Assembly: GCA_017303635.1 (NCBI GenBank)
Contig: JAFLCG010000001.1
Location: forward strand, 372,001 to 436,000
DNA length: 64,000 bases
Direction: 5' to 3'
Origin: Anaerolineae bacterium
GTDB taxonomy: Bacteria; Chloroflexota; Anaerolineae; Aggregatilineales; Phototrophicaceae
In this document: one piece after another, positions 38,790 through 50,628 of the stretch
Numbering within the stretch: the first letter of the stretch is position 1
Layout: every line of letters starts with the position of its first letter
Program-made: the position numbers and the translations under genes
The notes under the pieces: generated by a model
What the model was told of the DNA's origin: nothing
Seen by the model: the letters and a program-made list of their open reading frames with translations, nothing else
The model's database searches: none

Positions 38790-39887
38790 TTATTCGCCAG
38801 CGCACTCCGGGTTGCTCTCCGGGCAGAGCCAGCGGTCGCCGCCAGAGGCTTCCGCTACCCAACCGAGGGCACCACCCTGGGTGAGATTGCGGACGTACCA
38901 GTAGTAGGTTTCGTTGGCACAGACGGGACCCGCCAGAATTTCCAACCGGTGGTTGTCATAGGCCTGGGTGCGGGTGGTCTGGACGCTGCCGCTGGGGTCA
39001 GCCAAGACTCGGAGCGCACCAATGTCGTTGAAGTCTACCACGGCGATGCTGCCGACGTTGAAGAGCGTGGTGGGCGCACCGGCACATTCCTCGACCGGGG
39101 CAGCCTCAGCCGAAATAGCAGACTGAAAGACACTGAGCGGGGTGGCCTGGGCTACTGTTGTGGGTGGGATGGGACTGGGTACTACCAGAGTGGGCTGAGG
39201 AGTGCTGTCGACGGCGGTAGGGGCGGGGGTCGCCTGAGTCTCAAATGGCTCGGAGAGCGTGGCGGTGGGCGGTAGGGTTGGCGCGTTCTGCAGGAAACGC
39301 GCCAGCGCATCACCTGGCGCGGCTGACGAACTGTAGATCAGCAGCGTCAACGTGAGGATCTGGCCTTCCGGCGCGGGGGCCGCCCGCACGGATTGGATCT
39401 GAATGCCAGGGTGCGAGGCTTCCCGAAAGAGGGTCAGGTATTCGATCAAGTCATCAATATTGCCTTGAATTTGGACCTGAAAGACGGTCACGCGATACCC
39501 GGTGGTCGTGATGGATTCGTCCGGCTGCTGTACCTGTAGATTGATGACCTGAACGGCGCGGGCGTAAGCGTTACTATAGACGCTATCAATGACCTGTTGG
39601 ACTTCCGCGTCAGAAAGCAACTCGGAGGATGCTTGCGCCAACGCTTCCCGCGCATTGGCGATCTGCCTTTCGAGGATGGCGATGTTATCCCCGGAGTTGG
39701 CTTCCGTTTCCCGCTGGGCAATCTGCGTTTCCTGTGCCGTGATGGCGTTATTGATCTCTTCATAACGCTGCGAGCCTGGAATGATTGACCGAATGGCGAG
39801 CAGGGCGATCCCCATAATGCCCATCAACACCATGAGTATGGGCAAAAGCCCTATGAGCCGGGTGCGCAGGTTACTGAGTACTTGCAT
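38790..39887 (-). CDS. PilO-like membrane protein with C-terminal SH3-type domain
   Basis: 365 residues. One N-terminal membrane helix (~10-32), a coiled coil (~40-95; ITAQETQIAQRETEANSG, IAILERQIANAREALAQAS), then a ferredoxin-like region (~100-205) as in PilO/GspM alignment proteins. A Thr/Pro linker (~215-255) joins a C-terminal ~90-residue SH3-type domain (RVLADPSGSVQTTR, YYWYVRNLTQGGALGWVAE). PilO-type proteins form periplasmic frames of type IV pili and type II secretion. The SH3 domain could bind wall or surface polymer. It is last in the archaellum operon and overlaps the PilN-like gene by 17 bp. A link to archaellum anchoring is inferred. Confidence 0.75.
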   Translation of the reverse strand: MQVLSNLRTRLIGLLPILMVLMGIMGIALLAIRSIIPGSQRYEEINNAITAQETQIAQRETEANSGDNIAILERQIANAREALAQASSELLSDAEVQQVIDSVYSNAYARAVQVINLQVQQPDESITTTGYRVTVFQVQIQGNIDDLIEYLTLFREASHPGIQIQSVRAAPAPEGQILTLTLLIYSSSAAPGDALARFLQNAPTLPPTATLSEPFETQATPAPTAVDSTPQPTLVVPSPIPPTTVAQATPLSVFQSAISAEAAPVEECAGAPTTLFNVGSIAVVDFNDIGALRVLADPSGSVQTTRTQAYDNHRLEILAGPVCANETYYWYVRNLTQGGALGWVAEASGGDRWLCPESNPECAGE

Positions 39888-40485
39888 CGCCCTGTACCCC
39901 TAAACTGGCAGTGATGGTGAAGGAAAAGAGCATGGTATCAGCCTGTGCTTCCGGGGTGGCATTTCGATTGTTATTGCCTTCAGTGACGGGATTGGCTGAG
40001 ATGGATTGAAGCTGGACGCGCTCAAAGACGCCGGTGGCCTGGAGAGCCTGCACATATTCCAGTACATAGAATTCTGCGACGGCATCGCCTTCGAGGGTCA
40101 AACGCCCGGCTTCGTGGGCAAAGGCCGTCAATTGTAATCGGGAACGGTCGAACGAACCGACAAAGGTCATAATGGCAGGCCAGTCGATATGGGCTGCTAT
40201 CAATGTGGGTACGGCTCCTTGAAACAGGCTGCTCTCATTTCGCAGATTGACCAGTTCAGAGACGAGGGTTCCTTCCGCGTCTGGTACAACGGGCGGCGCG
40301 GTGATGGTCAGTTGCAGGGTGTCATACTTCGCCTGGAGATCGTCCACTCCGGCGGTGATCGACTGGGAGATGAGATAGGCAGGCAACAGCATCAGCAGGA
40401 AGGCAGTCGCCAGAATCCAGATGACGATTTGCCGGATACGCCTGGCAGAGAAGCTGGATTTGGGTGGAGCCGGAGTTTTTGTCAC
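39871..40485 (-). CDS. PilN/PilO-like single-pass membrane protein
   Basis: 204 residues from GTG 40485, behind TTAGGAG; the frame is open to 40548 but overlaps the upstream gene. A basic N-terminus, a membrane helix (~17-37; WILATAFLLMLLPAYLI), a short coiled coil (~45-60), and a mixed alpha/beta domain (~70-195; LTLEGDAVAEFYVLEYVQAL) resemble PilN, whose C-terminal domain folds like PilO. It overlaps the following PilO-like gene, as pilN-pilO pairs commonly do. These proteins are absent from archaeal archaellum operons, so they may be bacterial additions. Confidence 0.7.
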   Translation of the reverse strand: MTKTPAPPKSSFSARRIRQIVIWILATAFLLMLLPAYLISQSITAGVDDLQAKYDTLQLTITAPPVVPDAEGTLVSELVNLRNESSLFQGAVPTLIAAHIDWPAIMTFVGSFDRSRLQLTAFAHEAGRLTLEGDAVAEFYVLEYVQALQATGVFERVQLQSISANPVTEGNNNRNATPEAQADTMLFSFTITASLGVQGDASTQ

Positions 40486-40496
40486 CGTTCGGTCTC

Positions 40497-41150
40497 CTAA
40501 GCGGTGATAGTCGTTGTAATGACGAGCATGACGAGCGCCCCGATACACAGAAAGGGCGCATAGGGAATCGTATCCGTCAGGCGATGATGCTTATGCAACA
40601 TCAGTGTAACCAAAACCACAGCGCTTACGCCAGCACTGATGATGAGTGCCCAGAGAACATTGGGAAAACCGAAGATCACACCGATGAGGGTGCTGAGCTT
40701 GACATCCCCCATCCCCAGACCACCGGGACGCAACACGGCAACGGCAAAGAAGATGCCAAAAGCAAAGACGGCCCCCACCACTATATGACTGACCTGAATC
40801 TGCTGGGTGAGAAGATGCAGGACCAGCGCCAAGGCCAAGCCCGCAGCGATCAGCGGATTGGGGATGATGCGGTACTTTACATCAATAACCGCCAGGAAGA
40901 TGAACAGCCAGGCCAGGAGGCTATAACCCAGTTGGTGGATGGGCACGGTGTAGCGTAGGGTGGGTAGCGTGATGAAGATGCCAACGGTTAAGGCGATGGC
41001 GATACGGAAGGCGGGTGTATGAGTCCAGGCAACGGATTTATGGGCATGTTCCGGCCTGAAGCGCTCTATGAAGGCTTCGCCGATAGACCCGGTAAACCAG
41101 CCCAGCAGGATGCCACCTAAGAACAGGCTGATGGTGAAGATGGGATTCAC
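40497..41150 (-). CDS. Prepilin/archaellin-type A24 signal peptidase
   Basis: 217 residues from GTG 41150, preceded by GGAGGAGG. About six membrane helices. The two catalytic Asp of the aspartic A24 family are visible: D90 in FLAVIDVKYRIIPN and D149 in the GMGD motif (146-149). The N-terminal zinc methyltransferase domain of PilD is absent, as in archaeal FlaK/PibD and bacterial TadV/CpaA. It should cut class III signal peptides on the cytosolic side, including the archaellin at 50053. It lies in the archaellum operon, overlapping the FHA kinase by 4 bp. Confidence 0.9.
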   Translation of the reverse strand: MNPIFTISLFLGGILLGWFTGSIGEAFIERFRPEHAHKSVAWTHTPAFRIAIALTVGIFITLPTLRYTVPIHQLGYSLLAWLFIFLAVIDVKYRIIPNPLIAAGLALALVLHLLTQQIQVSHIVVGAVFAFGIFFAVAVLRPGGLGMGDVKLSTLIGVIFGFPNVLWALIISAGVSAVVLVTLMLHKHHRLTDTIPYAPFLCIGALVMLVITTTITA

Positions 41151-49845: not shown

Positions 49846-50000
49846 TCACACTCCCGGTGCGCTCTCCCAGTACGGTTTGTGCCTGGTTGGCATTGCGTGC
49901 AGACGTAAGTTGTAATGTGTTACGGAAGCTTGAAAAAATGGGCTTTGAGAAACTACAGACTAGGTAATTTTTGATGATCTGCTGCTTACAGATACTGGGG

Positions 50001-50031
50001 GGACGGACCCACCCTACAGGTTGATCCGTCC
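50001..50031 (-). other. Hairpin after the archaellin gene
   Basis: GGACGGA (50001-50007) pairs with TCCGTCC (50025-50031), 22 nt after the archaellin stop, without a T-run. It could partly stop or stabilise the archaellin mRNA so that archaellin is made in excess over the downstream motor proteins. Confidence 0.45.
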
Positions 50032-50052
50032 TGATACCAGTTTCATTGATGA

Positions 50053-50628
50053 CTAGCGCAGTTCCATGACCGCTTCGATGGCTGCCGGGGTGGTACGATT
50101 GATATTCAGGACGCCGCCGGTCGGGGGCTTGACTTCCAGAGTGAAGGCAGTGTTGACGCTCAGAGCCGTGCCCAGACCGCTCAGGTCAACCGTCACTTCG
50201 GCCAGTTCACCTTCTTCGAGCAGGTCATCGGGGGTGGTTTCATTGCTGACGATCCAATCCACGGTCCAGTCCACATTGTTTTCCAACTGGGTAGCATCAC
50301 GGTAGCCGATGACGACGACACGATCCGCAGCGGCAGAGGCCAGGTTGACAGGTTCGCCACCAGAGACCGGCGAGATGGTGAAGACAATCGTGTCAACATC
50401 TGTACCAGCGCCTTCAGCGATGATGGCACCCTTGACGGACAGTGATGATTGGACGCCTTCCAGACCACTGTAGATGGCTTCTTCACCACGTTCGGTGGAG
50501 GCAGAACCGGCTGAAAGAATAGTAAAAGCAAAGACTGAAGCAACAACAACGAATGCAATCAGGATAATCGCGGTTTCCAGAGCAGCCTGACCACTTTCGT
50601 TCCGACGGATAACAGAGAAGTTGAACAT
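50053..50628 (-). CDS. arlB: Archaellin (filament subunit)
   Basis: 191 residues. A class III signal peptide ends RRNESG13; the mature protein starts QAALETAIILIAFVVVASV, a pilin-like helix with Glu at position +5, needed in pilins for filament packing. The rest (~45-190) is a beta-rich globular domain with Ser/Thr/Val-rich strands. The C-terminus LEVKPPTGGVLNINRTTP followed by EAVMELR resembles archaellin ends. Cleavage would be by the A24 peptidase at 40497. Excellent ribosome site AAGGAGG. It is first in the operon, as archaellins are. A bacterial pilin is the alternative, but the arlFGHIJ neighbours favour archaellin. Confidence 0.9.
   Translation of the reverse strand: MFNFSVIRRNESGQAALETAIILIAFVVVASVFAFTILSAGSASTERGEEAIYSGLEGVQSSLSVKGAIIAEGAGTDVDTIVFTISPVSGGEPVNLASAAADRVVVIGYRDATQLENNVDWTVDWIVSNETTPDDLLEEGELAEVTVDLSGLGTALSVNTAFTLEVKPPTGGVLNINRTTPAAIEAVMELR

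Follow-up and report, generated by a model that had tools for sequence, protein, structure and literature searches.

How does a motor from an archaeal envelope work through peptidoglycan, and how does it receive chemotactic input without CheF? The available text of two reports on archaella in Chloroflexota leaves both questions open (PMC12488501; PMC13319060). Here we analyze a 64,000-nucleotide stretch of DNA (the window) from an Anaerolineae bacterium (GCA_017303635.1), which occupies 372-436 kb of one contig (JAFLCG010000001.1, our C1) in a genome of 6.8 Mb. Twelve consecutive minus-strand open reading frames (ORFs) at window 38790-50628 form a complete archaellum operon of the published kind, in a variant form. 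We consider it probable that the operon builds a rotating swimming filament, with a motor predicted to be tied to the cell wall by PilN and PilO.

The available text of PMC12488501 (2025) describes a functional archaellum in Litorilinea aerophila, whose cells swim, and archaellum machinery in 243 of 3,780 Chloroflexota genomes, attributed to transfer from archaea; the mention of such reports in the first-pass annotation of the window is borne out. The loci described there have the order arlG-arlF and a peptidase outside the locus; in L. aerophila, pilN and pilO-LysM lie near arl, CheF is absent, and the link that replaces it is called unknown. PilN-PilO was later proposed as a scaffold for the L. 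aerophila archaellum in the available text of PMC13319060 (2026), which counts, among 244, 34 that have PilN and PilO and 3 in which a PilO-LysM lies near arl, leaving anchoring in the others open. Because functional archaella are published for Chloroflexota, the archaellum core is already known. Beyond the main-text content of these papers, whose supplementary gene lists may hold some of it, are the protein encoded behind arlJ (the tail protein), the clade-wide PilN-PilO pair with its tips, an FHA-GAF-ATPase, receiver-ArlH fusions, and ArlF repeats. PilN-PilO with swapped tips, receiver-ArlH with embedded chemotaxis genes, and the tail protein make the anchoring and chemotaxis questions directly testable, in part on purified proteins.

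Gene content of the operon

The genes are separated by gaps of 3-21 bp or overlap slightly, except for a 207-bp gap between arlB and the D/E-like gene. Their order runs from arlB through the D/E-like gene, arlG, arlF, arlH, arlI, and arlJ to five further genes, and the stretch G-F-H-I-J corresponds to the arl2 type described in the available text of PMC12488501.

50053..50628, minus strand: arlB, archaellin, the sole Arch_flagellin match in the genome
49000..49845, minus strand: ArlD/E-like cytosolic gene (putative name)
48470..48982, minus strand: arlG, stator
47324..48466, minus strand: arlF, stator, with a long extension
47333..47935, minus strand: cadherin-like repeats of ArlF (residues about 178-378)
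46598..47302, minus strand: arlH
44873..46594, minus strand: arlI, motor ATPase
43432..44922, minus strand: arlJ, membrane platform
42865..43422, minus strand: tail protein, with a homologue in 44 loci
42880..43029, minus strand: three-helix module of the tail protein (residues 132-181)
41147..42847, minus strand: FHA-GAF-HATPase protein, histidine-kinase-like (FHA 8e-14, GAF_2 8e-9, HATPase_c 7.7e-17, HisKA just 0.021)
40497..41177, minus strand: type IV prepilin peptidase (A24; Pfam 1.3e-16)
39871..40548, minus strand: PilN (Pfam PilN 1.1e-7, 32.3 bits against a cut-off of 22.8)
38790..39887, minus strand: PilO with a C-terminal SH3-like tip, identified by fold, its sequence match being below cut-off
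38808..39056, minus strand: SH3-like domain of PilO (residues 278-360), by fold match

The first-pass annotation, made from the letters alone, had read this run as an archaellum operon, and profile and PDB matches for the archaellum core agree. ArlB matches Pfam Arch_flagellin (4e-24, 86 bits against a cut-off of 29.5), TIGR02537 (23.1 bits, above the cut-off of 20), and PDB 9i5h "Flagellin" (3.5e-57), matches of an archaellin and not of an ordinary pilin. Its N-terminus, MFNFSVIRRNESG-QAALETAIIL, agrees with the proposed class III signal, with Glu at +5 given a predicted cut after Gly13. The Walker A motifs of ArlH (GGSGSGKS, residues 37-44) and ArlI (GATASGKT, residues 327-334) lie where they had been placed. 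ArlI scores 635.8 bits with NF058587 (cut-off 550) against 156 bits for TadA, and matches PDB FlaI 4ii7 at 3.3e-122. A RecA/KaiC-type ArlH adjoins ArlI and ArlJ, the arrangement that marks an archaellum; its best matches are archaellum families and not unrelated KaiC proteins (NF004723, 230.5 bits, cut-off 194; PDB FlaH 4yds, 1.4e-31), but NF052589 ArlH, at 187 bits, falls below its cut-off of 215. In ArlJ, Pfam T2SSF matches in two stretches, as the suggested double T2SF plan implies, and the NCBIfam matches are exclusively three ArlJ models, all below cut-offs (best NF004703, 2.8e-109, 366 bits against 570).

As single sequences, ArlG matched no archaellum family and ArlF gave weak matches (Arch_flagellin 0.004, FlaF_Ig 0.064); family alignments support the stator pair (FlaF 4p94, 2.4e-12; FlaG 5tug, 1.9e-15). 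The profile check recommended by the first-pass annotation succeeded above cut-offs for ArlH and ArlI, whereas ArlJ and one ArlH model stayed below, and ArlF and ArlG were recognized only as family alignments. The 281-residue D/E-like protein has no informative Pfam match and no match to a curated archaellum model, and its family occupies the same position in 7 of the 9 archaeal loci of our sample. For that sample the 80 best ArlI loci were kept, out of at least 575, so locus counts are biased toward near kin. Homologues of the window genes were sought, with profiles built from those genes, in a set of 6,341 non-redundant ORFs that covers 90 loci and includes the window.

The signal peptidase and accessory genes that had been noted behind the core are present, the peptidase being of the prepilin type; the accessory identities and the cadherin-like repeats of ArlF had been missed. 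These C-terminal repeats match Cadherin_3 in two stretches when the window copy is scanned on its own (8.1e-38), and the region matches PDB CSPG4 7ml7 in the family alignment (9.5e-8). ArlF spans 369-426 residues in 13 window-clade members (window included) and is shorter in L007 (276), L133 (271), and L018 (174); elsewhere most ArlF ORFs are below 210 residues and 11 exceed 300.

Such modules bear on what the filament does. An archaellum-derived, non-rotating filament for attachment could make use of the cadherin-like and SH3-like modules, and the window genome, searched for CheF, FliG_C, and CheW with controls ringing, gave no match, the lack of CheW fitting a filament that does not swim. 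Against this, the operon retains ArlH, ArlG, and ArlF, all linked to rotation in archaea, and a related operon powers swimming in L. aerophila (available text of PMC12488501). We regard attachment alone as unlikely and favor a rotating swimming filament.

The tail protein behind arlJ

The tail protein has weak database matches, probably coiled-coil, and comprises one membrane helix, a coiled coil, a loose linker, and a C-terminal module (model predicted local distance difference test, pLDDT, 81). This module, three helices of about 45 residues, is conserved. No Pfam family was found in 10 members scanned (one coiled-coil match, 0.03) and no NCBIfam family in 6. A profile of the module built from 43 members yielded 64 matches at E ≤0.05 among the 6,341 ORFs, 20 of them new relative to the earlier homologue set. 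Without exception, the 64 sit downstream of arlJ or arlI and share its strand. The start lies at -60 to 1,200 bp in 59 of them; the other five, by their called starts, overlap arlJ by 129-205 bp. In the loci where arlJ has moved forward (L053, L055, L065, L083), the tail gene follows arlI.

Of 76 loci offering 900 bp or more of room, the first search covered 62. Among the 14 misses are L076 and every one of the eight archaeal loci with that room; the L076 contig, assigned to Candidatus Fermentibacteria, has an ArlI very near Methanosarcinales and is probably a binning error. Iteration raised the matches to 75, adding the post-arlJ genes of L067, L072, L078, L079, L082, L084, and L076, with E-values when first met of 4e-5 to 0.012 for the archaeal genes and 8e-7 for L076. 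The iterated profile missed L040 and L056, though both have an acidic gene behind arlJ, and the archaeal link is therefore only suggestive. By simple hydropathy, window-clade members have one membrane helix, most of those in receiver-ArlH loci have two, and some in Dehalococcoidia have none. We also considered the module as an ArlD/E relative; comparison with bacterial and archaeal ArlD/E profiles showed no relation.

The conserved module and its invariable neighborhood make the tail protein a likely undescribed partner of the archaellum. If it is indeed a subunit, work on archaea has overlooked the same subunit.

PilN, PilO, and the prepilin peptidase

To place the last genes of the operon, we used an Anaerolineae clade of 36 rows (support 100), defined from an earlier ArlI tree that included L107 and L110 and not from the 96-row tree described below. 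Where 5.5 kb or more follows arlI/arlJ, PilN and PilO both occur in 25 of 26 clade loci, in none of 27 from other Chloroflexota, and in none of 5 from archaea; L018 and L028 carry the pair despite less than 5.5 kb. The lone exception, L024 (G184), has a PilN gene beyond its arlB. On the ArlI tree the pair requires one change, which fits a single recruitment in the Anaerolineae line. The association is compatible with the 34 of 244 in the available text of PMC13319060, provided most of the 244 are Dehalococcoidia.

The far end of PilO varies. Among 27 family members, tips match LysM in 10 and, weakly, 3keto-disac_hyd in 4 and Laminin_G_3 in 3; others were named by eye, except for the SH3-like tip of the window. 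PilO of L032 ends in a LysM tip and that of L009 in a LamG-like one. The tips are likely interchangeable grips on the wall. The crenarchaeal ArlX model also gives weak matches to two of the 27 (best 0.011), probably through the coiled coil. The prepilin peptidase lies inside the locus in 22 of 36 clade loci (window included), in contrast to the published loci.

The pair and the tail protein might merely be co-located with the archaellum and serve another pilus. The window genome has two prepilin peptidases, one of them outside the operon, and two additional T2SSE matches that score like TadA, so it probably has a Tad pilus. However, PilN has a single match in the entire genome, the pair stays with arl in nearly every clade locus with room, and the tail gene follows arlI where arlJ has moved. 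A search for the secretin PilQ found no match in the window genome (its control matched 6 of 14 genomes). The single PilM_2 match (contig C37; 40.3 bits, with neighbors) is perhaps FtsA, since the control also rings in 9 of 14 bacteria, Bacillus subtilis included. We judge service to another pilus improbable and retain PilN, PilO, and the tail protein as probable parts of the archaellum.

Candidate signal inputs

The genome has no match to CheW or CheF, which leaves the FHA-GAF-ATPase of the operon as the strongest candidate for signal input. Comparison was confined to 12 strong full-length matches because the iterated profile turned generic (200 matches). All 12 keep the FHA residues GR, SR.H, and STNG, and the ATP boxes are aligned and kept across homologues. 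The phosphoacceptor His that characterizes sensor histidine kinases is conserved in only two, the window (His344) and L014, so that the window copy, taken alone, has this kinase hallmark and the family as a whole does not. These sequences suggest that family members are mostly pseudo-kinases, which may act by binding.

A second candidate was found elsewhere in the sample. Of 85 full-length ArlH, 15 bear an N-terminal CheY-like receiver as a fusion, confirmed by scan in two of them (L019, 3.5e-16; G118, 7.7e-16). The phospho-Asp is retained in 13 of the 15 and lost in L021 and L027, and the fusion requires three changes on the ArlI tree. A CheW match was obtained in 8 of the 15 fusion genomes and in none of the other 7, which shows that the fusion does not depend on CheA-CheW. 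L027 (8093-9904) has the receiver-ArlH, without phospho-Asp, in tandem with a plain ArlH. In L032, L126, and L130, of Caldilineaceae type, a stand-alone ORF of 125-129 residues matching receiver/kinase profiles lies between arlF and arlH, perhaps the unfused state of receiver-ArlH.

In G118 the archaellum operon itself contains a chemotaxis set, read gene by gene (L148:2013-20000, L149:75-17808; G118:C43). The run begins with two copies of arlB, a 1,046-residue ORF, D/E, G, and F; an insert follows with CheW, CheR, two methyl-accepting chemotaxis protein (MCP) receptors, CheA, CheB, a hybrid kinase, a receiver, a ThiF-type gene, and unscanned genes; and the run closes with receiver-ArlH, I, J, tail, PilN, and PilO. 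Coordinates suggest that the insert is also present in G137, G184, G155, G087, G309, and G237. Receiver-ArlH is a candidate for the chemotaxis link that PMC12488501 calls missing; the words "receiver" and "response regulator" do not occur in the available text of that paper.

Distribution and phylogeny

The archaellum is patchy. Within the class sample, 21 of 396 genomes (our own included) pass the archaellum ATPase cut-off; within the family, 2 of 28 listed genomes do so, the window genome and G252, although the listed genomes are 89-98% complete. G163 and G279, of the same genus, lack an ArlI above that cut-off, which suggests recent gain or loss inside one genus. The entire 12-gene order recurs in nine other loci (L005, L006, L007, L009, L010, L013, L014, L015, L031), with arlB interrupted by the contig end in L015; L012, L018, and L133 have it without the FHA-GAF gene, and L008 and L011 are truncated.

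The ArlI tree (96 rows, quick method, Shimodaira-Hasegawa-like approximate likelihood ratio test support only; the outgroup ORFs L107 and L110, with end branches of 10, left out) clusters the window ArlI with ArlI from archaea and Chloroflexota. Six TadA-like ATPases are set off from all ArlI by a branch whose support is 100, the separation on which the first-pass annotation had staked its reading. A Tad or type IV pilus locus misread as an archaellum, which PilN, PilO, and a bacterial prepilin peptidase within the run might suggest, is rejected as highly improbable by the profiles and this tree, by the presence of ArlH, and by the lack of a TadA/PilB-type ATPase in the locus and of a secretin match in the genome. 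Misbinning of an archaeal fragment into a bacterial genome, an error that seems to occur, as L076 shows, is equally implausible for a locus well inside one contig, beside bacterial sugar-use genes, whose nearest ArlI are from Chloroflexota (as are most of the best 80 loci), 76-77% identical and with the same 12-gene order.

Four Dehalococcoidia loci (L066:8217-11734, L074:8228-11737, L080:287-3799, L081:3153-6673) have a tandem arlI pair, 58-70% identical. The first copies were suspected of lacking Walker A; alignment showed it kept in both.

Proposed mechanism

We propose that the prepilin peptidase of the operon trims ArlB and that ArlI and ArlH, acting on ArlJ, polymerize and rotate the filament, by analogy with L. 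aerophila and archaea. ArlG and ArlF would form the stator, with the cadherin-like repeats extending farther outward than the short ArlF of other loci. PilN and PilO may form a collar around the motor, with PilO gripping peptidoglycan by its SH3-like tip. The tail protein is predicted to dock on ArlI, ArlH, or ArlJ, its three-helix module being probably cytoplasmic. Signals might enter through the FHA-GAF-ATPase, more likely by ATP- and phosphothreonine-dependent binding than by phosphorelay.

A broader proposal is that the tail protein is an undescribed subunit that crossed from archaea with the motor, and that Anaerolineae archaella form a distinct wall-anchored class, with a PilN-PilO collar, interchangeable tips, and a receiver-ArlH or FHA pseudo-kinase replacing the CheF switch. 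We advance this tentatively, with confidence a little short of even.

Genomic surroundings

The operon is flanked by a sugar-use cluster and a dockerin-domain protein. The upstream cluster (51115-63677) encodes GH35, a glucoamylase-like protein, a LacI regulator, GH94, a transporter subunit, and two solute-binding proteins, one of 1,023 residues with a long N-terminal part. Adjoining the operon end, a convergent gene (36984-38633) encodes a 549-residue protein with a C-terminal dockerin domain (1.4e-5). A promoter scan of 50600-51150 gave a single plus-strand match, below the number in shuffles, and a terminator scan of 50600-51150 and 38600-38860 showed none.

Comparison with known systems

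The type IVa pilus alignment complex (PilM-PilN-PilO-PilP-PilQ) shares with the window the folds and pairing of PilN and PilO, whereas the window genome has no secretin match and its PilO bears an additional tip. Methanosarcinales loci (L067, L072, L078, L079) share the order B, D/E-like, G, F, H, I, J and an acidic protein gene directly behind arlJ; unlike the window, they have no PilN, PilO, or prepilin peptidase in the stretches examined, and their ArlF is about 170-174 residues long.

L. aerophila (Caldilineales), whose features are taken from the available text of PMC12488501 and PMC13319060 (the nearest locus compared directly is the Caldilineaceae contig L032), shares arlB, the G-F order, H, I, J, nearby PilN and PilO, and the reported absence of CheF. 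There, PilO carries LysM, the PilN-PilO genes precede arl, the peptidase is encoded away from the locus, and a cheY homologue is in the cluster. The window, in contrast, has an SH3-like PilO tip, PilN-PilO and the peptidase at the operon end, an FHA-GAF-ATPase gene, and cadherin-like repeats in ArlF.

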